Source: a bacterium
GTDB lineage: Bacteria; Patescibacteriota; Minisyncoccia; UBA6257; JAGOQP01
Assembly: GCA_021780155.1 (NCBI GenBank)
Contig: JAJXZH010000035.1
Location: 1-34,761, forward strand
Length of the DNA: 34,761 bases
Direction of reading: 5' to 3'
A program made the position numbers and the translations under genes. This document shows positions 5,735-15,157 of the stretch, in pieces (within the stretch, counting starts at the first letter, position 1; every line of letters starts with the position of its first letter). Under the pieces are notes generated by a model. The model made no database searches and was not told where the DNA came from. It worked only from the letters and a program-made list of their open reading frames with translations.

Positions 5735-7099
5735 ATGACCGAAAGAAAAAACAACAAAAAGAGAATAGTAAAAGTCGTTGATATTATTAGAATTTCTGAT
5801 GACAAAAGACCCAAAAAATCCGAGCCTAAATTGGAAGATGATTTTTTTGCCGACGACAATAATTCTAAAGCAATCAGTGAACTTGAAGAGCTTGTCAGAT
5901 CAAAAAACGAGCCAAAAGATTTTCAAGAAGAAAAACCCAAAAAGAAAAAGAAGAAATCGGCGAGGATTTTGACTTGGACAGTTGTTTTATTTTTGGCGGC
6001 ATTTTTTATTTATTGGGCTTTTTATATTGCGCCATCGGCAACTATAAATATTTTTACAAAAAAAATAGATTGGAATACTCAAATAACATTGACGGTAAAT
6101 AAGGGAGTTAATCAACCCGATGTTTCTTCATTGCAAATTCCCGGAGAGATACTGAATGTTCCGGTTAATGCCGTTCTCCAATTCACGCCTACCGGTAAAA
6201 AATATTTAGAAAGAAAGGCGTCCGGCACGGCTACTATATATAATGCTTTCAGTTCGACGCCTCAAGTTTTGGTGGCGACTACTCGACTCCAAGCTCCTAA
6301 CGGAAAGATTTACAGATTGGTCAATAAAATAACCGTTCCCGGAGCCATAGTTTCCGGAGGGAAAATTACCCCATCTTCTTTACCCAATGTTCCGATTATT
6401 GCCGACAAGGCCGGACCTGATTACAATTCCGGAGCGATAGAAAAATTATCCATACCCGGATTTTTGGGCACTCCCAGATATAATGGATTTTACGCCAGTA
6501 TTCCAAGCGGAGTTTCCGGAGGATTTATTGGCGATGGATTGTATCCGACCGATAGTGATGTCGCTAAAGCCAAGAGTCAAGTTCAGTCGGCGATTGCCGA
6601 TGCTTTAAGCACAAAACTTTTGACCCAAATTCCGGAGGGAGATACTTATATTCCAAGCACGGTTTCCACTTCAACAATAAAAATAACAGTTAACACAAAT
6701 GTTAATTCCGATAATCAATTTTCGGCCACCGGTGACGGACAGGAACAGGTTGTTGTTTTTAAAGAATCGGACATTGTTGGAGTTTTAAGAAATCTGGCTC
6801 AGAAAAATGCTTCATTGCCCCAGGATTATGTGGAGCAATCTAAAACGATACAATATCAAAATCCGACAGTTGATTGGAAACTCGGGAAGATGACACTGCC
6901 TATAAATTACTCTGCTGTTTATTGGCATCCGATAGATCCCGATCAAATAAAATCGGCTATTGTCGGAAAATCTTCAAGCGATCTGAAAAATTACGTTTTG
7001 AATTTACCCGGAGTGGATAAAGTTTCGGCTTCGTTTAACCCGTTTTGGGTAGGTGGTGTAACGAGTGATTTAAATAAAATAAATGTCGTTGTTCAATAA
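5735..7099 (+). CDS. single-pass membrane protein, baseplate-J-like (CPR type)
   Basis: Charged N-terminus, one TM (ILTWTVVLFLAAFFIYWAFYI), then GTATIYNAFSSTPQVLVATTRLQAPNGKIYRLV, as in CPR proteins annotated baseplate J-like. Confidence 0.6.
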   Translation: MTERKNNKKRIVKVVDIIRISDDKRPKKSEPKLEDDFFADDNNSKAISELEELVRSKNEPKDFQEEKPKKKKKKSARILTWTVVLFLAAFFIYWAFYIAPSATINIFTKKIDWNTQITLTVNKGVNQPDVSSLQIPGEILNVPVNAVLQFTPTGKKYLERKASGTATIYNAFSSTPQVLVATTRLQAPNGKIYRLVNKITVPGAIVSGGKITPSSLPNVPIIADKAGPDYNSGAIEKLSIPGFLGTPRYNGFYASIPSGVSGGFIGDGLYPTDSDVAKAKSQVQSAIADALSTKLLTQIPEGDTYIPSTVSTSTIKITVNTNVNSDNQFSATGDGQEQVVVFKESDIVGVLRNLAQKNASLPQDYVEQSKTIQYQNPTVDWKLGKMTLPINYSAVYWHPIDPDQIKSAIVGKSSSDLKNYVLNLPGVDKVSASFNPFWVGGVTSDLNKINVVVQ

Positions 7100-7161: not shown

Positions 7162-7371
7162 ATGCCAAAGGATTTTGAAAAGCTGGTTAATGGGATTGTG
7201 CAAGAATCGTTGCCCGGAACCACTTTTCGAGTGGAGATTGATGGCAAAATTATTCTCTGTCATATTTCGGGAAAGATGAGAATTCACCATATTAAAGTTA
7301 TGCCCGGAGACAGGGTAGCTGTCCGTTTAAGTCCCGATGGAACGCGGGGCATTATTATGAAACGAATGTAA
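7162..7371 (+). CDS. infA: translation initiation factor IF-1
   Basis: 69 aa; [40 protein letters not shown]. Confidence 0.95.
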
Positions 7372-8388: not shown

Positions 8389-9012
8389 ATGCATTTGCTT
8401 AAATCAAAAGAAAAAAAAGAAAGATCCTTAGGGACCAAATTGGGATTAAAAGCCCATCGTTGTAATTCTCCTAAATGCGCCATGATAAGGAGACCGACTA
8501 GACCAGGGGAACATTCCAGACCGGGAAGAGGATTTTCCGAGTTTAAACAACAATTGATGGAAAAACAAAAAATAAGATTCAGTTATGGACTTTCTGAAAA
8601 ACAAATGAATGCTGTTGTTGCTAAAGCATTATTAAAGAAAAAAACAGCTTCTGTTACGGACCAGATTATTGGTCGCTTGGAATCCAGAATGGATAATGTT
8701 GTTTATCGCTTGGGACTTGCTCCTTCCAGAATAGTCGCCAGACAACTTATTTCTCATGGACATTTTGTGGTTAATGGAAGAAAGGTTAATATTCCTTCAC
8801 GTATTTTGAAAGTTGGAGAGGTGGTTTCTATCAGAGAGCAGAGCAGAAACATTCCTATGTTTAAGGATTTGGGAAATGTTTTGAAGGGAGAAAATCCGGA
8901 AAATTGGCTCACTCGCAATGTTCAAAAATTGGAAGGTTCCATTAAATCAAAACCGGAAGGAATCGAAATTCCTTTTGATATCAACTTGGTGATTGACTAT
9001 TATTCAAGGTAA
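8389..9012 (+). CDS. rpsD: 30S ribosomal protein S4
   Basis: KCAMIRRPTRPGEHSRPGRGFSEFKQQLMEKQKIRFSYGLSEKQ; RLESRMDNVVYRLGLAPSRIVARQLISHGHFVVNGRKVNIPS. Confidence 0.96.
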   Translation: MHLLKSKEKKERSLGTKLGLKAHRCNSPKCAMIRRPTRPGEHSRPGRGFSEFKQQLMEKQKIRFSYGLSEKQMNAVVAKALLKKKTASVTDQIIGRLESRMDNVVYRLGLAPSRIVARQLISHGHFVVNGRKVNIPSRILKVGEVVSIREQSRNIPMFKDLGNVLKGENPENWLTRNVQKLEGSIKSKPEGIEIPFDINLVIDYYSR

Positions 9013-9052
9013 AATAATTAAATAAATTATTTAATTTTAAAAAATAAAAAAT

Positions 9053-9820
9053 ATGGAATATACATTTTTGAGCAAAAACGTTTCCGTTAAAAAGATTTCC
9101 GAAAAAGACGGAGTCGGAGTTTTTGAAATCAATGGTCTTTATACCGGTTATGGAATAACTTTGGGAAACGCCATAAGGAGAGTTTTACTTTCTTCCTTGC
9201 CCGGAGCGGCCATTACTCAGTTTAAAATAAAAGGAATCAAGCATGAATTTTCGACAATAGACGGAGTTTTGGAAGATGTCGTTGAAATCATTTTAAATCT
9301 TAAAAGGATAAGATTTATTTTTAATGCCGATGAGCCGCAAATTTTAACTCTAAAAAAGAAAGGAGAAGGCGAAGTTACCGCTGTCGATATAAAAGGAAAT
9401 TCTTCGGTTGAAGTTGCCAATCCGGAACAATTAATTGCGACTATAACATCAAAAAGTGGAGAATTAGATATGGAATTAACCGTTGAAAAAGGACTGGGAT
9501 ATTCGCCGGTAGAAAGCAGAAAATCTGATAAACTTTCGGTTGGAACCATTGCTATTGATTCTATTTTTACTCCGGTTGTTAATGTTAATTTTGAAGTTGA
9601 AAATATGCGCGTTGGAGACAGAACTGATTTTAATAAACTATTGCTGACGATTGAAACTGATTTAACTATTAATCCGTCAAGAGCGCTTCATAAAGCGGCA
9701 AATATTTTAAAAGACCACCTGGAAGTTATTTCAAATGTTGAAGTTGACGACGAAGAGGTGGTTATTAAAAAAGTAAAAGAAAAGGAAACTAATAAAAAAT
9801 CCTCAAAAAAATCAAAATAA
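9053..9820 (+). CDS. rpoA: DNA-directed RNA polymerase alpha subunit, N-terminal domains only
   Basis: GYGITLGNAIRRVLLSSLPGAAIT...RVGDRTDFNKLLLTIETDLTINPSRALHKAANIL; 255 aa ending in a Lys-rich tail. Confidence 0.95.
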   Translation: MEYTFLSKNVSVKKISEKDGVGVFEINGLYTGYGITLGNAIRRVLLSSLPGAAITQFKIKGIKHEFSTIDGVLEDVVEIILNLKRIRFIFNADEPQILTLKKKGEGEVTAVDIKGNSSVEVANPEQLIATITSKSGELDMELTVEKGLGYSPVESRKSDKLSVGTIAIDSIFTPVVNVNFEVENMRVGDRTDFNKLLLTIETDLTINPSRALHKAANILKDHLEVISNVEVDDEEVVIKKVKEKETNKKSSKKSK

Positions 9821-9858
9821 AATAAAATAAAATTTAATTTTTTTAGTTTTTCAAAAAT

Positions 9859-10209
9859 ATGAGACATCAACAAAAGAATAGAAAATTCGGAAGAAAAAAG
9901 GGACAAAGAAATGCTTTTTTGAAAAGCTTAATTTCAAATTTGATTTTGAAAGGGAAAATAGAAACCACCGAAGCTCGCGCTAAAACATTAAAATCAAAAA
10001 CGGAAAAATTAGTGACTCTGGCAAAAAAGCAGAATCTCGCTTCTTTGAGGGAATTGATTTCAAGAATTTCCAAAAAGCCGGCAATAAAACTTTATTATGA
10101 TATTGCTCCTAAGTATGCCTCAAGAAATGGTGGATATTTAAGAATTATTAAATCCGGTAAAAAAAGAGTAGGGGACGCTTCGGTAAAAAATATTATTGAA
10201 TTTGTTTAA
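9859..10209 (+). CDS. rplQ: 50S ribosomal protein L17
   Basis: MRHQQKNRKFGRKKGQRNAFLKSLISNLILKGKIETTEARAK. Confidence 0.96.
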   Translation: MRHQQKNRKFGRKKGQRNAFLKSLISNLILKGKIETTEARAKTLKSKTEKLVTLAKKQNLASLRELISRISKKPAIKLYYDIAPKYASRNGGYLRIIKSGKKRVGDASVKNIIEFV

Positions 10210-10255
10210 TTAATTTTGCTAAATATAAAAAGATTTGGCAGTTTTTAGAAAAAAT

Positions 10256-10468
10256 ATGGCTTTATTTTCAAAAATAAAAAAAATATTGGAAAATCAAGAT
10301 GCTTGTGTTTTATCAAAAAACGGAAATCCTGAATACGTTGTATTAAAATGGGTAGCTTTTAATAAAATTCAAAACAAGCAAGATGAACTTTCAAAAATAA
10401 AATCAGAAATAGAACGCGAAACCGAAGATGAAAATTACGATATTGACATTAATAAAATTCCCGTCTAA
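10256..10468 (+). CDS. small Phd/YefM antitoxin-like hypothetical protein
   Basis: ATG at 10256 (track starts at TTG 10235); DACVLSKNGNPEYVVLKWVAFNKIQNKQDELSKI resembles the Phd/YefM 'sknGkP..vl.s...y' pattern. Confidence 0.45.
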   Translation: MALFSKIKKILENQDACVLSKNGNPEYVVLKWVAFNKIQNKQDELSKIKSEIERETEDENYDIDINKIPV

Positions 10469-10614: not shown

Positions 10615-11814
10615 ATGGCAGAGAAAGCAAAATTTGAACGCACGAAGCCGCACGTCAATGTTGGAACCATTGGACACGTTGACCATGGAAAGACCACTTT
10701 GACGGCCGCTATCATGCACGTTCTCAAACTGAAGGGTCTTATTGATAAAGAAGAGGGAGTCGACCAAATAGATAATGCTCCCGAAGAAAAAGCTCGCGGA
10801 ATAACTATTGCCTTGCATCATTCCGAATATCAGACCGAAAAAAGACATTATGCTCACATTGATGCTCCCGGACACGCCGATTACATCAAAAACATGATTA
10901 CCGGAGCCGCTCAGATGGATGGCGCGATTTTAGTCGTTGCCGCCACTGATGGACCAATGCCTCAAACCAGAGAGCACGTTCTTTTGGCTCACCAGGTTAA
11001 TGTTCCTAAATTGGTTGTTTTTCTAAACAAAACAGATCAAGTTAGCGACCCTGAGTTGATTGATTTGGTTGAATCCGAAGTTAGAGAACTTTTGAAAAAA
11101 TATCAATTCCCGGGAGACGAGACTCCGGTTATTAGAGGTTCTGCTCTTAAGGCCTTAGAAGCCAAAACATTGGATGATCCGGCAGTTAAACCGATTGAAG
11201 ATTTGTTAAAGGCTTTGGATGAATATATTCCTGAACCAGTTAGACAAACCGACAAACCATTTCTTATGCCTATCGAAGATATTTTCTCGATTGAAGGACG
11301 CGGAACGGTTGTCACCGGAAAAATCGACAGAGGCATTGTTAAAGTCAACGAAGAAGTTGAAATTGTTGGACTCAAACCGACTCAAAAAACAATTGTTACC
11401 GGAGTAGAAATGTTTCAAAAAACATTGGACGAAGGAAGAGCTGGAGATAACGTGGGAATTCTTTTGAGAGGACTCAAAAAAGAAGATGTTGAACGCGGTC
11501 AGGTTATTGCCAAGCCGGGATCAATCACTCCTCACACCGAATTCACTTCCGAAGTTTATATTTTAACCAAAGAAGAAGGAGGAAGACACACGCCTTTCTT
11601 CAAAGGATATAAACCGCAATTTTATTTGAGAACGACCGATGTTACCGGTGAGGTTGAACTTCCGGAAGGAACCGAAATGGTTATGCCCGGAGATACAATC
11701 ACTTTTACCGTTAAACTTATCGCTCCGGTTGCTTTGGAAGAAAATCAGAAATTTGCTATTCGTGAAGGAGGAAAAACCGTTGGTGCTGGAGTCATTACTA
11801 AAATTATTAAATAA
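10615..11814 (+). CDS. tuf: elongation factor Tu
   Basis: [49 protein letters not shown]. Confidence 0.98.
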
Positions 11815-11844: not shown

Positions 11845-12174
11845 ATGCCTACAAAAAAAATAGAAGTTAAAAATAAAATACGTCTTAAAATAAGATCATA
11901 TGATCATCGTTTGATTGACACCTCAACCAAACAGATTATAGATACCATTTTAAGAAACGGAGCTGAAATTGTCGGACCAATTCCTTTGCCGACCGAGTTT
12001 CGTAAATATACCGTCAATCGTTCAACTTTTGTTCATAAGAACGCCAGAGAGCAATTTGAAATGAGAGTTCACAAACGATTGATAGAAATAGTGAATCCTG
12101 GACAAAAAATTGTAGAATCGCTTTCAAATCTCAACTTGCCATCAGGAGTTGATGTAGAAATAAGATTAGAGTAA
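11845..12174 (+). CDS. rpsJ: 30S ribosomal protein S10
   Basis: KIRLKIRSYDHRLIDTSTKQIIDT...GPIPLPTEFRKYTVNRSTFVHKNAREQFEMRVHKRLI. Confidence 0.97.
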   Translation: MPTKKIEVKNKIRLKIRSYDHRLIDTSTKQIIDTILRNGAEIVGPIPLPTEFRKYTVNRSTFVHKNAREQFEMRVHKRLIEIVNPGQKIVESLSNLNLPSGVDVEIRLE

Positions 12175-12177
12175 TTT

Positions 12178-12204
12178 AAACCCCCGTCTTTATGGCGGGG
12201 GTTT
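12178..12204 (+). terminator. strong hairpin after rpsJ
   Basis: AAACCCCCG-tctttatgg-CGGGGGTTT, perfect 9-bp stem. Confidence 0.6.
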
Positions 12205-12259
12205 GAGTTATGAATATAATATTCGGTCCGGAGGTGAGAGAGAAATAAAAACAAAAAGG

Positions 12260-12282
12260 CCTTCGTTTCACGAGGTTTTTTT
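12260..12282 (+). terminator. intrinsic terminator preceding the cassette region
   Basis: CCT-t-CGT-ttc-ACG-AGG followed by a 7-T run. Confidence 0.55.
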
Positions 12283-12283
12283 A

Positions 12284-12312
12284 TTGACTTTGTTTTTTTA
12301 GTAATTTATAAC
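12284..12312 (+). promoter_or_regulatory. promoter of cassette 1
   Basis: TTGACT-17 nt-TATAAC, immediately after the T run. Confidence 0.65.
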
Positions 12313-12339
12313 TATACCAGTAAACAAGGGGGGTGGGTG

Positions 12340-12555
12340 ATGGCCGTAATAATTATTGATTATGAATTAGACAAACGAGACAAGGCAATTTTGGAATGTT
12401 TCAAGGAGATTTTTGACGTAGTTGATAGCAGAGACGAAAATCTTCCGGACCTGGTTATTATTGCTAAAATTTGTTTTGAAGCCGGGCGTAAGTTTCAGCG
12501 CGATAACCCCAATTTTGAAGTGAGCGACAGTTGCACAATTTACCTCAATGATTAG
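12340..12555 (+). CDS. small orphan protein, GRKFQRDNPN family member A
   Basis: MAVIIIDYELDKRDKAILECFKE...KICFEAGRKFQRDNPNFEVSDSCTIYLND; promoter, G-rich SD region and terminator. Confidence 0.7.
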   Translation: MAVIIIDYELDKRDKAILECFKEIFDVVDSRDENLPDLVIIAKICFEAGRKFQRDNPNFEVSDSCTIYLND

Positions 12556-12579
12556 TTTGTGTGCATAAGATATTTCATA

Positions 12580-12606
12580 CCGCATGGCACGCCCAGCGGT
12601 TTTTTT
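12580..12606 (+). terminator. intrinsic terminator of cassette 1
   Basis: CCGC-atggcacgccca-GCGG followed by T7. Confidence 0.65.
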
Positions 12607-12773
12607 GTCATAATTAAACTATAATCCACTGTTAATAAATGTAATCTCAAACATAATAAACACTTTTTTGTCTCTAATGCAATGTTCTTTGCTAAACAGT
12701 GAAGGTTTTTGTTTAATAGACTTTAATTTCATCAAAAAAAGTGTATAATTATTTCAGAACCCGAGGTGATTAA

Positions 12774-13019
12774 ATGGCTAGAATTCTGAACAATCGCGAT
12801 AGAGCTATTTTGAATTGGATTAAGAAGAATAATCCTAGACTGACCGAAATGTTAGAACAAGTGATTGATTCTGAGGGCATTTTCTTGCCAGCTCTAAGGC
12901 CGTTTAGAACTCTTCATCTTATGCTACGTATAGGTTTTGATGCTGGTCGTAAATTTCAGCGTGATAATCCTAATGCTTCGGATGATCTGGACGAAGAAGA
13001 TAATTTTACTTGTGTTTAA
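12774..13019 (+). CDS. small orphan protein, GRKFQRDNPN family member B
   Basis: MARILNNRDRAILNWIKKNN...RIGFDAGRKFQRDNPNASDDLDEEDNFTCV; SD-like CGAGGTG; -10 TATAAT at 12744. Confidence 0.7.
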   Translation: MARILNNRDRAILNWIKKNNPRLTEMLEQVIDSEGIFLPALRPFRTLHLMLRIGFDAGRKFQRDNPNASDDLDEEDNFTCV

Positions 13020-13022
13020 TTT

Positions 13023-13042
13023 CCGCCCAAGGGCGGTTTTTT
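13023..13042 (+). terminator. intrinsic terminator of cassette 2
   Basis: CCGCCC-aa-GGGCGG followed by T6. Confidence 0.75.
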
Positions 13043-13047
13043 CTTGT

Positions 13048-13074
13048 CTAAAATCTCGGCTTCATGCATGAAAC
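13048..13074. repeat. cassette-junction palindromic motif, copy 1
   Basis: TCTAAAATCTCGGCTTCATGCATGAAA directly after the terminator. Confidence 0.75.
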
Positions 13075-13087
13075 AAACATCGCTATA

Positions 13088-13115
13088 TTGATTTTTTGTT
13101 TAATTGTGTTATAAA
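13088..13115 (+). promoter_or_regulatory. promoter of cassette 3
   Basis: TTGATT-16 nt-TATAAA. Confidence 0.6.
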
Positions 13116-13139
13116 TTAATCAGCAACTGAGGAGGAAAA

Positions 13140-13361
13140 ATGAGGTTTACTGTGTTTCACTGGTGGATAATTCCTGCTTTTTTGGTAATTTATGGAGTTG
13201 TGACGCTGTTTTTTTCTAAGATTAAGCATAGGAATGACCCAAAGTGGATTGGCAACGGTACATTCATGTTTCCTAACCTAAGTGGTTCTTTTTCGGATCT
13301 CACTAGCATCTTGTTTATTATCTTGGCGATTGTTTTTGTCGCTGGGCATTATATGAAGTAG
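13140..13361 (+). CDS. small two-TM orphan protein
   Basis: SD GAGGAGGAAAAATG; two hydrophobic segments (FHWWIIPAFLVIYGVVTLFF and TSILFIILAIVFVAGHYM). Confidence 0.7.
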   Translation: MRFTVFHWWIIPAFLVIYGVVTLFFSKIKHRNDPKWIGNGTFMFPNLSGSFSDLTSILFIILAIVFVAGHYMK

Positions 13362-13388
13362 TAGAGCCGTTCCAATGATTTTTTTGAT

Positions 13389-13416
13389 GCCGCATGGGTT
13401 TGCCCAGCGGCTTTTT
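13389..13416 (+). terminator. intrinsic terminator of cassette 3
   Basis: GCCGC-a-TGGG-tttg-CCCA-GCGGC followed by T5. Confidence 0.75.
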
Positions 13417-13420
13417 CTTA

Positions 13421-13449
13421 CCTAAAATCTCGGCTTCATGTATGAAACC
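13421..13449. repeat. cassette-junction palindromic motif, copy 2
   Basis: CCTAAAATCTCGGCTTCATGTATGAAACC. Confidence 0.75.
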
Positions 13450-13484
13450 AAATCAAAATAGTTTATTGGGGGAATTTTAGTATA

Positions 13485-13513
13485 TTGACATAGATATATA
13501 AATATGCTATCAT
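13485..13513 (+). promoter_or_regulatory. promoter of cassette 4
   Basis: TTGACA-17 nt-TATCAT. Confidence 0.65.
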
Positions 13514-13595
13514 TATAAAAAATGAGAGCTGTTTTTCTGCAGTTAACTAACTACAGAAAGGGCGGCCAGAAACCGTTCTTTACAAGGAGGAAAAG

Positions 13596-13976
13596 GTGGA
13601 TACCAAGAGAGGTTTCACGTTAGTTGAGTTGGCCATCGCTGTCGTGTTTGTTGCGATCACGTTCGTTTTCTTCATGGCTCCCACCTGGAACTGCTTCTAC
13701 ACCGAAGAAGGTGTGCTCAAGCAGCTCAAGGCGGAAGGTATGGTGGAAAACAACGCCACCATCGTCCGGACCGAACGTTGTCTCTTCGCGTACTCCAAGA
13801 TTTACGTGCGCGAAGAGTTGCAACCAACCCAGACCGACAAGAACATCTTCCCTGGCTGCAGCAAGGTTGTGGTCACCAAGATGTTTAAGTTGGACACCAA
13901 CATCTTGTACAACTATAAGTTGATGGGTCGTCGGTTCCCGAGGCCGTCGCACATTACCGCCCCTAGGATTCCCTAG
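13596..13976 (+). CDS. GC-rich prepilin-like small protein (GTG start)
   Basis: SD ACAAGGAGGAAAAG-GTG; MDTKRGFTLVELAIAVVFVAITFVFF is a class III (type IV prepilin) signal; remainder unrecognised. Confidence 0.75.
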   Translation: MDTKRGFTLVELAIAVVFVAITFVFFMAPTWNCFYTEEGVLKQLKAEGMVENNATIVRTERCLFAYSKIYVREELQPTQTDKNIFPGCSKVVVTKMFKLDTNILYNYKLMGRRFPRPSHITAPRIP

Positions 13977-13984
13977 GGGTTTTT
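13960..13984 (+). terminator. intrinsic terminator of cassette 4
   Basis: CCCCTAGG-attc-CCTAGGGG followed by T5; overlaps the ORF end. Confidence 0.75.
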
Positions 13985-13988
13985 CTTG

Positions 13989-14017
13989 TCTAAAATCCCG
14001 GTTTCATGTATGAAACC
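13989..14017. repeat. cassette-junction palindromic motif, copy 3
   Basis: TCTAAAATCCCGGTTTCATGTATGAAACC; GGTTTCAT-gt-ATGAAACC is a perfect inverted repeat. Confidence 0.75.
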
Positions 14018-14029
14018 AGTGTCGCTATG

Positions 14030-14057
14030 TTGATTTTTTGTTTAATCGTGTTATAAC
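14030..14057 (+). promoter_or_regulatory. promoter of cassette 5
   Basis: TTGATT-16 nt-TATAAC, nearly identical to that of cassette 3. Confidence 0.6.
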
Positions 14058-14082
14058 TTAATTAGCAACTGAGGAGGAAAAA

Positions 14083-14448
14083 ATGCGAAAACTGAATGTC
14101 CTAATACTGACGTTTTGTTTTGCTTTTATGTTTCCAATGATTGCCAGAGCTTCCGAGCGGACGGATATTTTTAAGAATGTATCTAAAGTTATGGTTGAGG
14201 TTATGACTGATAACCAGAATGCCGTTACAATGGTTTTGCTCAAGAATAATGGAGATTATCGGATTAAAAGTATTTATTTGGATGAACTTTTTGTGGGTAA
14301 AAAGATTACTATCAAAACTGATGTTCCTTCCGGAAAACTTCCTTGGGTAAAAGCTGTTGGATGGGAAGATTTTTCTGATGGAATGAATATTAAATATGAA
14401 AGCATTGTGATTCATGTCAGGTCATTGGATGATTTGGTTTTGCATTAA
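14083..14448 (+). CDS. secreted orphan protein with Sec signal peptide
   Basis: SD GAGGAGGAAAAAATG; MRKLNVLILTFCFAFMFPMIARA-SE, AxA-type cleavage site. Confidence 0.7.
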   Translation: MRKLNVLILTFCFAFMFPMIARASERTDIFKNVSKVMVEVMTDNQNAVTMVLLKNNGDYRIKSIYLDELFVGKKITIKTDVPSGKLPWVKAVGWEDFSDGMNIKYESIVIHVRSLDDLVLH

Positions 14449-14465
14449 GCAAATAAGAATTATAT

Positions 14466-14489
14466 GGCGGCTGTACCAGCCGCCTTTTT
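14466..14489 (+). terminator. intrinsic terminator of cassette 5
   Basis: GGCGGCT-gtacc-AGCCGCC followed by T5. Confidence 0.8.
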
Positions 14490-14516
14490 GTTATTAAAAC
14501 GCAACAAAAAGTGAAA

Positions 14517-14540
14517 TAAAAAAACCGGCAAACTTGCCGG
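14517..14540 (-). terminator. intrinsic terminator of minus-strand cassette 6
   Basis: CCGGCAA-ac-TTGCCGG with a T run on the minus strand. Confidence 0.75.
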
Positions 14541-14547
14541 ATATTTA

Positions 14548-14838
14548 TTATGCGATTTTGACTGGTACACTGTCGATCACTATCAAATTATTATATTCGC
14601 TAGAGGTTATCATGACTACGCTGTCATCTTGTTGCCTGCCGGATACAAATCCTTTCTTAATTTTCACTTGGTGATCAACTTCCCATCCGCTTGGATTGAT
14701 AAAGTGGGGCTCACATGATGGCTTCCAGTACTGAAATAACTCCCATTTGTCAATTTCTTTCCCGTCCTTATTCAGAAGAAATACGACAATTTTTCTTTCA
14801 TAAATATATCCATGCGCAATAGCTCTCTCTCTTGTCAC
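14548..14838 (-). CDS. orphan 96-aa protein (GTG start)
   Basis: Minus-strand GGAGAAGAAAAA-GTG start; own terminator; upstream TTGACA and TATAGT with a short (~15 nt) spacer. Confidence 0.65.
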   Translation of the reverse strand: MTRERAIAHGYIYERKIVVFLLNKDGKEIDKWELFQYWKPSCEPHFINPSGWEVDHQVKIKKGFVSGRQQDDSVVMITSSEYNNLIVIDSVPVKIA

Positions 14839-15040
14839 TTTTTCTTCTCCAGTGCTGATAAAACACTATAACTCGCACTGTTTGGTGTCAATATATTGTT
14901 TATTAAGTTTCGAATAAAAATAAAATGTTGAGTACCTAGCAAGCATTTTTTGTTTTATTGTTTTGCACAGGATAATTTTTGAGCGGAATTTATAAAGTGA
15001 AATAATGGGGCTCCGACTGCCGGTTTTGCCTATATTTGTG

Positions 15041-15069
15041 TTGACATTAGAATATATTTTTGCTAAATT
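15041..15069 (+). promoter_or_regulatory. promoter for the rplC operon
   Basis: TTGACA-17 nt-TAAATT. Confidence 0.6.
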
Positions 15070-15105
15070 TATTTCACATAAAAAATTGGTTGCTTTTATA
15101 AACAA

Positions 15106-15140
15106 GAAGCAGCCGGGACTTATAGTCCGTTGGCTGTTTT
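15106..15140 (+). promoter_or_regulatory. structured leader hairpin upstream of rplC
   Basis: GAAGCAGCC-gg-GACT-tat-AGTC-cgtt-GGCTGTTTT two-tier stem. Confidence 0.5.
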
Positions 15141-15157
15141 AAATTGAATTACAATAT

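Follow-up and report, generated by a model that had tools for sequence, protein, structure and literature searches.

We analysed a 34,761-nucleotide stretch of DNA (the window) from a Parcubacteria draft genome of about 0.71 Mb (35 contigs, completeness 99.67%), in which two ribosomal protein genes, rpsJ (S10, positions 11845-12174, Pfam Ribosomal_S10) and rplC (L3, 15158-15793, Pfam Ribosomal_L3), both on the plus strand, are separated by 2983 bp. Few parts of bacterial chromosomes are regarded as being as stable as the S10 gene cluster. On the left flank rpsJ is the last gene of the tuf-rpsJ unit, tuf being matched by Pfam GTP_EFTU. The genome carrying the window is denoted G000 and its two congeners G001 and G002, of which G002 is the closest; these three genomes represent the genus.

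Six small open reading frames located between rpsJ and rplC were confirmed as described in the original prediction, each with a plausible promoter, ribosome-binding site and strong intrinsic terminator. In a targeted scan a hairpin with a T-run accompanied all six (-9.8 to -17.2 kcal/mol), compared with about 20% of conserved genes in G000 having a terminator hairpin at or below -8. Similarly, a -35/-10 pair with a score of 9/12 or more was present in 6/6 versus 32% of conserved genes, and in five of them the end of the -10 box lies 24-27 nt from the start codon, while ORF4 has a leader of 82 nt. The untargeted scan is weaker when taken alone: terminator-like sites numbered 9 where 3.8 +/- 2.4 were expected, and promoter-like sites 21 where the expectation was 14.3 +/- 3.6. 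Codon usage supports the annotated frame in every case, weakly for ORF3 and ORF4. At the sequence level, the proposed description of these units as monocistronic cassettes is thereby supported. The genome-wide count revealed further terminator-dense places in G000, so terminator density alone is not unique to the island. A strict genome list of autonomous orphan units, obtained with a filter that missed cassettes 1-4, contains 25 genes, mostly single and scattered, which are neighbours only at rpsJ-rplC. PADLOC detected no defence genes. Transmembrane-like segments were present in 15/25 island proteins versus 116/459 in the background set, some members of which are spurious ORFs, the island proteins coming from few independent loci.

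The cassettes lie on the plus strand, except for the last one. Cassette 1 (12340-12555, 71 aa; start codon GTG at 12337 or ATG at 12340) is preceded by the promoter TTGACT-17-TATAAC (12284-12312) and followed by a terminator (CCGCATGG..GCCCAGCGG with a T-run, 12580-12607, -10.0 kcal/mol), the motif of which is seen again downstream of cassette 3 and within the G001 island. It is a paralogue of cassette 2 (41% identity over 63 aa), which encodes 81 aa (12774-13019) between the promoter TTTAAT-16-TATAAT (12722-12749) and a terminator at 13023-13042 (-9.8 kcal/mol). A homologue of cassette 2 occupies this locus in G001 too, but none is present in G002 or 241 other genomes of the order; dN of 0.16 and dS of 0.51 between the two copies indicate purifying selection. 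Their synonymous codon identity is 0.70, compared with a genome mean of 0.50 +/- 0.06, a value reached by 2/352 core genes and by random 66-codon segments with P of about 0.01-0.02; over 81 codons this excess of similarity is moderate. Neither cassette 1 nor 2 had a match among viral contigs. Cassette 3 (13140-13361, 73 aa) encodes a hydrophobic membrane protein (maximum hydropathy 2.29), for which Pfam/TIGR-type profile search gave no family, and its terminator is found at 13389-13416 (-16.2 kcal/mol).

Cassette 4 (13596-13976, 126 aa) is preceded by the promoter TTGACA-17-TATCAT (13485-13513, 11/12 match) with the long leader mentioned above, and its terminator (13959-13985, -17.2 kcal/mol) overlaps the gene end. 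Its product has a prepilin-like N-terminus (GFTLVELAIAV), with TIGR02532 scoring 16.4 bits against a cut-off of 16.3 and Pfam N_methyl just under its cut-off, so that the earlier statement that no product belongs to a known family holds for five ORFs and fails for this one. The GC content of cassette 4 is 0.52 within a region of about 0.34, and its sole homologue in the order (41% identity) is encoded by G232, a genome of another family, in another small-gene array at another locus. Cassette 5 (14083-14448, 121 aa; terminator 14466-14490, -15.8 kcal/mol) has an N-terminal signal-peptide-like segment and is an orphan among 243 other genomes of the order. The orphan cassette 6 (14548-14838, 96 aa) is located on the minus strand together with its promoter TTGACA-15-TATAGT (14865-14891) and terminator (14525-14540, -10.1 kcal/mol). 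Searching of cassettes 4-6 by tblastn gave no phage matches, and the PHROG matches of cassettes 4 and 5 were weak (E 0.004-0.03). Structure models were poor (pLDDT 51 for cassette 6 and 56 for cassette 2), which made a PDB search on them meaningless.

The cassettes are separated by spacers that are partly repeated. A block GGTCCGGAGGTGAGAGAGAAATAAAAACAAAAAGGCC..TTTTTTT with a terminator hairpin at its end (12221-12285, plus strand) has two copies in the G001 island, matching at 89% identity across 54 nt and 90% across 30 nt, the spacer blocks of the two genomes being 89-92% identical. A 106-nt repeat comprising a palindrome, promoter and SD occurs twice on the plus strand, at 13035-13140, from the T-tract of a terminator to the start codon of cassette 3, and at 13977-14082, ending at the start of cassette 5; the copies are 89% identical ahead of two unrelated genes, and the opening 45 nt recur after the cassette 3 terminator (13407-13451). 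In the second copy the hairpin GGTTTCATGTATGAAACC has a DNA fold of -5.4 kcal/mol (z -3.6). Elsewhere in the G000 genome no copies of the spacer repeats were found. Near-perfect hairpins (GTCCACCTTA..TAAGGTGGAC) lie between the cassettes of G001 and also next to a solitary small gene elsewhere in the G002 genome; this type was not found in G000. A RAYT/Y1 transposase was considered as their source and rejected, as there is one in G000 and none in the hairpin-bearing G001 or G002.

Both edges of the interval carry transcription signals. Directly 3' of rpsJ there is a terminator-like inverted repeat (CCCCCG..CGGGGG, 12181-12210, plus strand) with a weak T-run. Hairpins differing in sequence occupy the same position in G001, G002, G003 and G005, and a terminator-type hairpin follows rpsJ wherever an empty or same-genus junction was read; Rfam gave only sub-threshold chance matches around the rpsJ terminator. 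The right edge is formed by a promoter of rplC (TTGACA, TTTTTGCTAAATT; 15041-15069, plus strand) and a structured 5' leader with an attenuator-like hairpin (GCAGCC..GGCTGTTTT; 15070-15157, plus strand, -20.9 kcal/mol), which is probably regulatory. Promoter and leader are conserved in 10/10 family genomes with a visible junction, the leaders of family members being similar to that of G000, and a stricter form of the promoter motif had no match in about 70 other Patescibacteria junctions. Judged from these signals, the point between tuf-rpsJ and rplC is a predicted transcription boundary across the family, with or without an insert. The insert therefore appears to occupy a pre-existing insulated gap, and the initial wording that it splits the S10 operon is misleading.

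Among 26 adjacent-gene gaps of the ribosomal cluster in ten family genomes only rpsJ-rplC is expanded, ranging from 0.23 to 5.9 kb, the remaining gaps being at most 426 bp. Its length is above 800 bp in 7/10 family members compared with 5/71 of the junctions from other Patescibacteria (Fisher p 2e-5). G009, with rpsJ at a contig end and adjoining DNA of GC 0.53, was left out. The nearest relative, G002, whose rpsJ protein is 99% identical to that of G000, has an empty interval of 229 bp, and G001 has one of 5921 bp with another gene set and one cassette in common with G000. The relatives clearly do not share the set of six genes and its order. In other genera the interval holds prepilin-LamG proteins or prepilin-FGE together with a diversity-generating retroelement (DGR), related prepilins being present in G004, G008 and G012. 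The G010 DGR comprises RVT_1 and bAvd with 21/21 TR/VR mismatches at TR adenines; in G012 16/18 mismatches are at TR adenines, and no RT was seen up to the end of the contig. The G000 island itself has no RT, TR or VR. With an empty closest genome, other genes in other genera and uniformly short neighbouring gaps, the anticipated integration hotspot is well supported as real at the family level. No account of a small-gene locus at rpsJ-rplC was found in the open-access literature.

The suggestion of an undescribed cassette-carrying element was not supported. The island ORFs of G000 include no integrase or transposase, and the junction sequences read gave no clean or shared boundaries and no target-site duplication. 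Each genome tested has one XerCD-like tyrosine recombinase; in G000 the sole PF00589 protein is XerCD-like in length and lies on another contig, and no IntI-type integrase was found in its contigs (a location in a contig gap is possible at 99.67% completeness). ComEC is present. Between G000 and G002 the flanking genes have dS of 0.62 (rpsJ) and 0.78 (rplC), within the range of neighbouring genes and with no obvious recombination scar; the three genomes of the genus are too few to polarise exchange events.

We consider it probable that rpsJ-rplC is a hotspot resembling a minimal mobile element (MME), supplied through DNA uptake and homologous recombination. The ribosomal operon of the family would be cut here, the tuf-rpsJ unit ending and rplC restarting from its own strong promoter, so DNA placed between them would leave ribosomal expression undisturbed, and foreign or duplicated genes with their own promoter and terminator would be tolerated. 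Whole gene blocks could be exchanged among related cells by uptake (ComEC, type IV pilus) followed by homologous recombination, with homology provided by near-invariant ribosomal genes outside and repeated terminator-promoter spacers inside; the spacers may also allow local duplication, loss or swapping of units. The cargo tends to consist of envelope, pilin-like and DGR-diversified proteins, so its likely use is surface variation of an episymbiont.

An old, vertically inherited surface-gene locus is unlikely. Here an ancestral prepilin, possibly DGR-diversified, would have been lost, replaced or degraded, with the small ORFs as its fast-evolving descendants or newborn genes and little transfer. 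The related prepilins in three family members, the prepilin-like cassette 4 and the tandem paralogy of cassettes 1 and 2 are consistent with it; it fits poorly with spacers 89% identical in front of unrelated genes, with a cassette 2 younger than core genes by synonymous divergence, and with a GC-rich cassette 4 whose sole relative is in another family. Rather improbable is a site-specific, integron-like system using the palindromic spacer repeats or the G001/G002 hairpins as sites for an unrecognised or trans-acting recombinase, its integrase out of sight. Autonomous units, palindrome-bearing repeats between unrelated genes and near-perfect hairpins point towards it. Against it stand the confinement of the spacer repeats to the island, a single tyrosine recombinase per genome, spacers in which no integron-type R'/R'' sites were seen by eye, the lack of the G001 hairpin in G000, the distribution of the Y1 transposase, and the absence of such spacers, in the sequence read, from the DGR and LamG loci at this position. 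We see little likelihood in a dedicated Parcubacteria small-gene system, in which terminator-promoter spacers, with their palindromes or hairpins, would be recombination sites and autonomous one-gene units would be inserted and swapped in insulated gaps (rpsJ-rplC, the G002 rRNA end and the G232 sodA neighbourhood).

A single insertion of a phage, plasmid or transposable element, now a decaying remnant, is very improbable: small orphan genes with local repeats are typical of such remnants and weak PHROG matches exist, but the ORFs are intact, phage, viral-contig, integrase, transposase and structural-gene matches are absent from the searches described, and several genera have varied content at this position. 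We give almost no credence to an assembly chimera, since, despite the 35-contig draft, both flanks agree in order with G001 and G002, this locus in G001 also holds a homologue of cassette 2 and spacers in common with G000, and composition matches the genome except for cassette 4.

In one family, then, rplC appears insulated by a promoter and leader of its own, and variable surface genes, DGRs and small autonomous orphan genes recur in the gap before it. If exchange by recombination is true, CPR bacteria (genomes below 1 Mb, few mobile elements) would diversify by taking up DNA and using insulated gaps between core genes. As a fixed, PCR-able address, the locus allows such diversification to be tested in any sample.

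Compared with known systems, the island resembles an integron array in its small, mostly orphan single-gene units and partly repeated, partly palindromic spacers, but differs in having no integrase, no attC seen by eye, a promoter and terminator per unit and one inverted unit, and in that the same locus in sister genera holds non-cassette cargo. With integrase-less chromosomal hotspots (Oliveira et al. 2017, PMC5635113) it shares an interval of fast gene turnover, the lack of a mobile element and essential core flanks; those were defined within species by flank recombination tests, whereas here flank dS only is at hand, and it is neutral. As in DGRs of CPR bacteria, G010 and G012 carry RT and/or bAvd-type proteins and A-specific TR/VR differences in rpsJ-rplC. 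From MME (Saunders and Snyder 2002; Snyder et al. 2007), following the definition quoted in PMC3082526, the island differs in being compared across species and genera rather than strains, in its small units with promoter, terminator and repeated spacers, and in that homologous incorporation is here a presumed step. What it has in common with MME, as so quoted, is no recombinase or ends, a competence gene, and an unchanged pair of conserved genes with differing whole-gene cassettes in between, as observed in the three congeners.

The genome carrying the window (G000; 707,709 bp in 35 contigs, 99.67% completeness) belongs to a Parcubacteria family, and the window is its contig C4 of 34,761 bp. 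The six small ORFs (cassettes 1–6) lie between tuf-rpsJ and rplC, where the original prediction had placed them. A blind scan of 4.6 kb returned 9 terminator-like and 21 promoter-like sites, against 3.8 ± 2.4 and 14.3 ± 3.6 in shuffles. A targeted scan gives a clearer signal: all six genes are directly followed by a hairpin and T's (−9.8 to −17.2 kcal/mol), compared with about 1 in 5 conserved G000 genes having a hairpin at or below −8, and all six are preceded by a −35/−10 pair of at least 9/12, compared with 32% of conserved genes. In 5/6, 24–27 nt separate the −10 end from the start codon. The annotated reading frame is supported by codon usage in 6/6, weakly for cassettes 3 and 4, and dN/dS between cassette 2 and its homologue is ~0.3. 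These signals credibly make the six units self-contained small genes.

The interval was then measured in the 58 of 61 genomes in which rpsJ was located. Comparison of 26 adjacent-gene gaps of the ribosomal cluster within the family revealed wide variation at rpsJ-rplC only: 2983 bp in G000, 5921 and 229 bp in its congeners G001 and G002, and 463, 1940, 306, 814, 826, 1680 and 3374 bp in the family members G003, G004, G005, G006, G007, G008 and G010, respectively, all remaining cluster gaps being ≤ 426 bp. The interval exceeds 800 bp in 7/10 family genomes and in 5 of ~71 other Patescibacteria junctions (Fisher p = 2 × 10−5), where the outside-family gaps are upper bounds, as the L3 alignment frequently begins no earlier than about residue 100, and some of these loci possibly represent one genome counted twice. 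Since contents differ as well as size, the comparison across relatives proposed earlier bears out a locus of changing content, and we regard the interval as very probably a hotspot in this family.

The original prediction spoke of cassettes splitting the S10 operon, which has to be corrected. A TTGACA box with a TTTGCTA-type (extended) −10, TTTGATA in G002, stands upstream of rplC in 10/10 family genomes with a visible junction, and most of the ten carry a leader with a hairpin and T-run; promoter and structured attenuator-like leader occupy window 15041-15157 and the same position in L054-L061 and L063. None of the other Patescibacteria loci read showed a stricter form of the motif before rplC; these may rely on different promoters. 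As the empty interval of G002 also has the rplC promoter and a terminator after rpsJ, the operon appears already divided into tuf-rpsJ and rplC units in the family, and inserts would occupy an insulated gap, which offers a reason for their tolerance. The leader is possibly an autoregulatory ribosomal-protein leader relocated from rpsJ to rplC. The rpsJ end with its hairpin (window 12145-12282) gave sub-threshold Rfam matches to the rimP leader, JA04 and ohsC, probably by chance.

Cargo at the same locus varies. G001 holds about nine genes. Besides a homologue of cassette 2, they include genes for a membrane protein and an EamA transporter and two GC-rich genes (L054:8468-9407; 0.60–0.62 in a ~0.35 GC genome), one of these two lipoprotein-like; this GC-rich pair follows a promoter and long structured leader resembling those of cassette 4. 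Prepilin-LamG proteins are found in G004 and G008. G010 and G012, from two sister genera, each carry a diversity-generating retroelement (DGR) within the interval: reverse transcriptase, bAvd and template/variable repeats in G010 (L063:8005-9406, 9457-9587, 10826-10956), and a prepilin target with FGE-sulfatase domain, an Avd-like protein and repeats in G012 (L064:276-398, 487-822, 854-976, 858-2411). Mismatches of the repeat pairs fall at template adenines in 21/21 and 16/18 cases, respectively, and are true DGR signatures. Transmembrane-like segments occur in 15/25 island proteins versus 116/459 in the genome (p = 7 × 10−4, against a rough background).

Cassettes 1 and 2 are paralogues. Among 244 genomes of the order, cassette 2 occurs in G000 and G001 only, being missing from the closer relative G002; its synonymous-site identity is 0.70 versus 0.50 ± 0.06 for core genes, with 2/352 genes higher (segment-level P ~0.01–0.02). 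A metal-transport-like segment of G000 (C10:23353-27555) has unusually high synonymous similarity to G001, likely reflecting recent transfer. Within the order, cassette 3 gave marginal matches only, cassettes 5 and 6 had no detectable relatives, and cassette 4 (GC 0.52) has a sole relative, at 41%, in a small-gene array beside sodA in G232, from another family. A 106-nt spacer repeat (89%), reaching exactly from the terminator T-tract to the next start codon, precedes the mutually unrelated cassettes 3 and 5, and 45 nt of it recur after cassette 3. Spacer pieces are common to G001 at 89–92%; none was found elsewhere in the G000 genome. Three near-perfect hairpins TGTCCACCTTA..TAAGGTGGACA separate G001 units (L054:5986-6023, 6499-6547, 7242-7279), and the same hairpin occurs in G002 next to a solitary 73-aa gene that follows the rRNA operon (L296 about 1475-1550); it was not found in G000.

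With regard to the route of exchange, no integrase or transposase was found in the island, no target duplication or common edge was seen there, each genome tested has one XerCD-like recombinase, and ComEC is present. Integrase-less hotspots diversified by recombination at flanking core genes, as outlined in PMC5635113, are a comparison class; the island flanks gave no positive recombination signal, rpsJ and rplC dS versus G002 being ordinary. We somewhat favour a route like that of minimal mobile elements, in which whole-gene content is swapped between the same two conserved genes, and consider a specific, so far unrecognised recombinase moving the units improbable.

The G232 array (L258, reverse strand, about 8735-10433 after reversal; L247:1447-3145) consists of small monocistronic genes, among them two tandem paralogues and the prepilin-like relative of cassette 4, and has near-identical terminators. 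About 25 orphan small genes with a strong SD and their own terminator are scattered in G000 (C7:2470, C10:25747, C16:3007 and 4555, C17:12611, others), one immediately preceding the rplJ unit and a second flanked by a tRNA and the mraZ region. Together, these suggest that autonomous small units may be common in Parcubacteria. This kind of locus is known; we found no description of the rpsJ-rplC locus in the open-access literature, and apparently new are the S10-cluster site, which owes its permissiveness to rplC having a promoter of its own, the repeated spacer modules, and the cargo of autonomous small genes, prepilins and DGRs.
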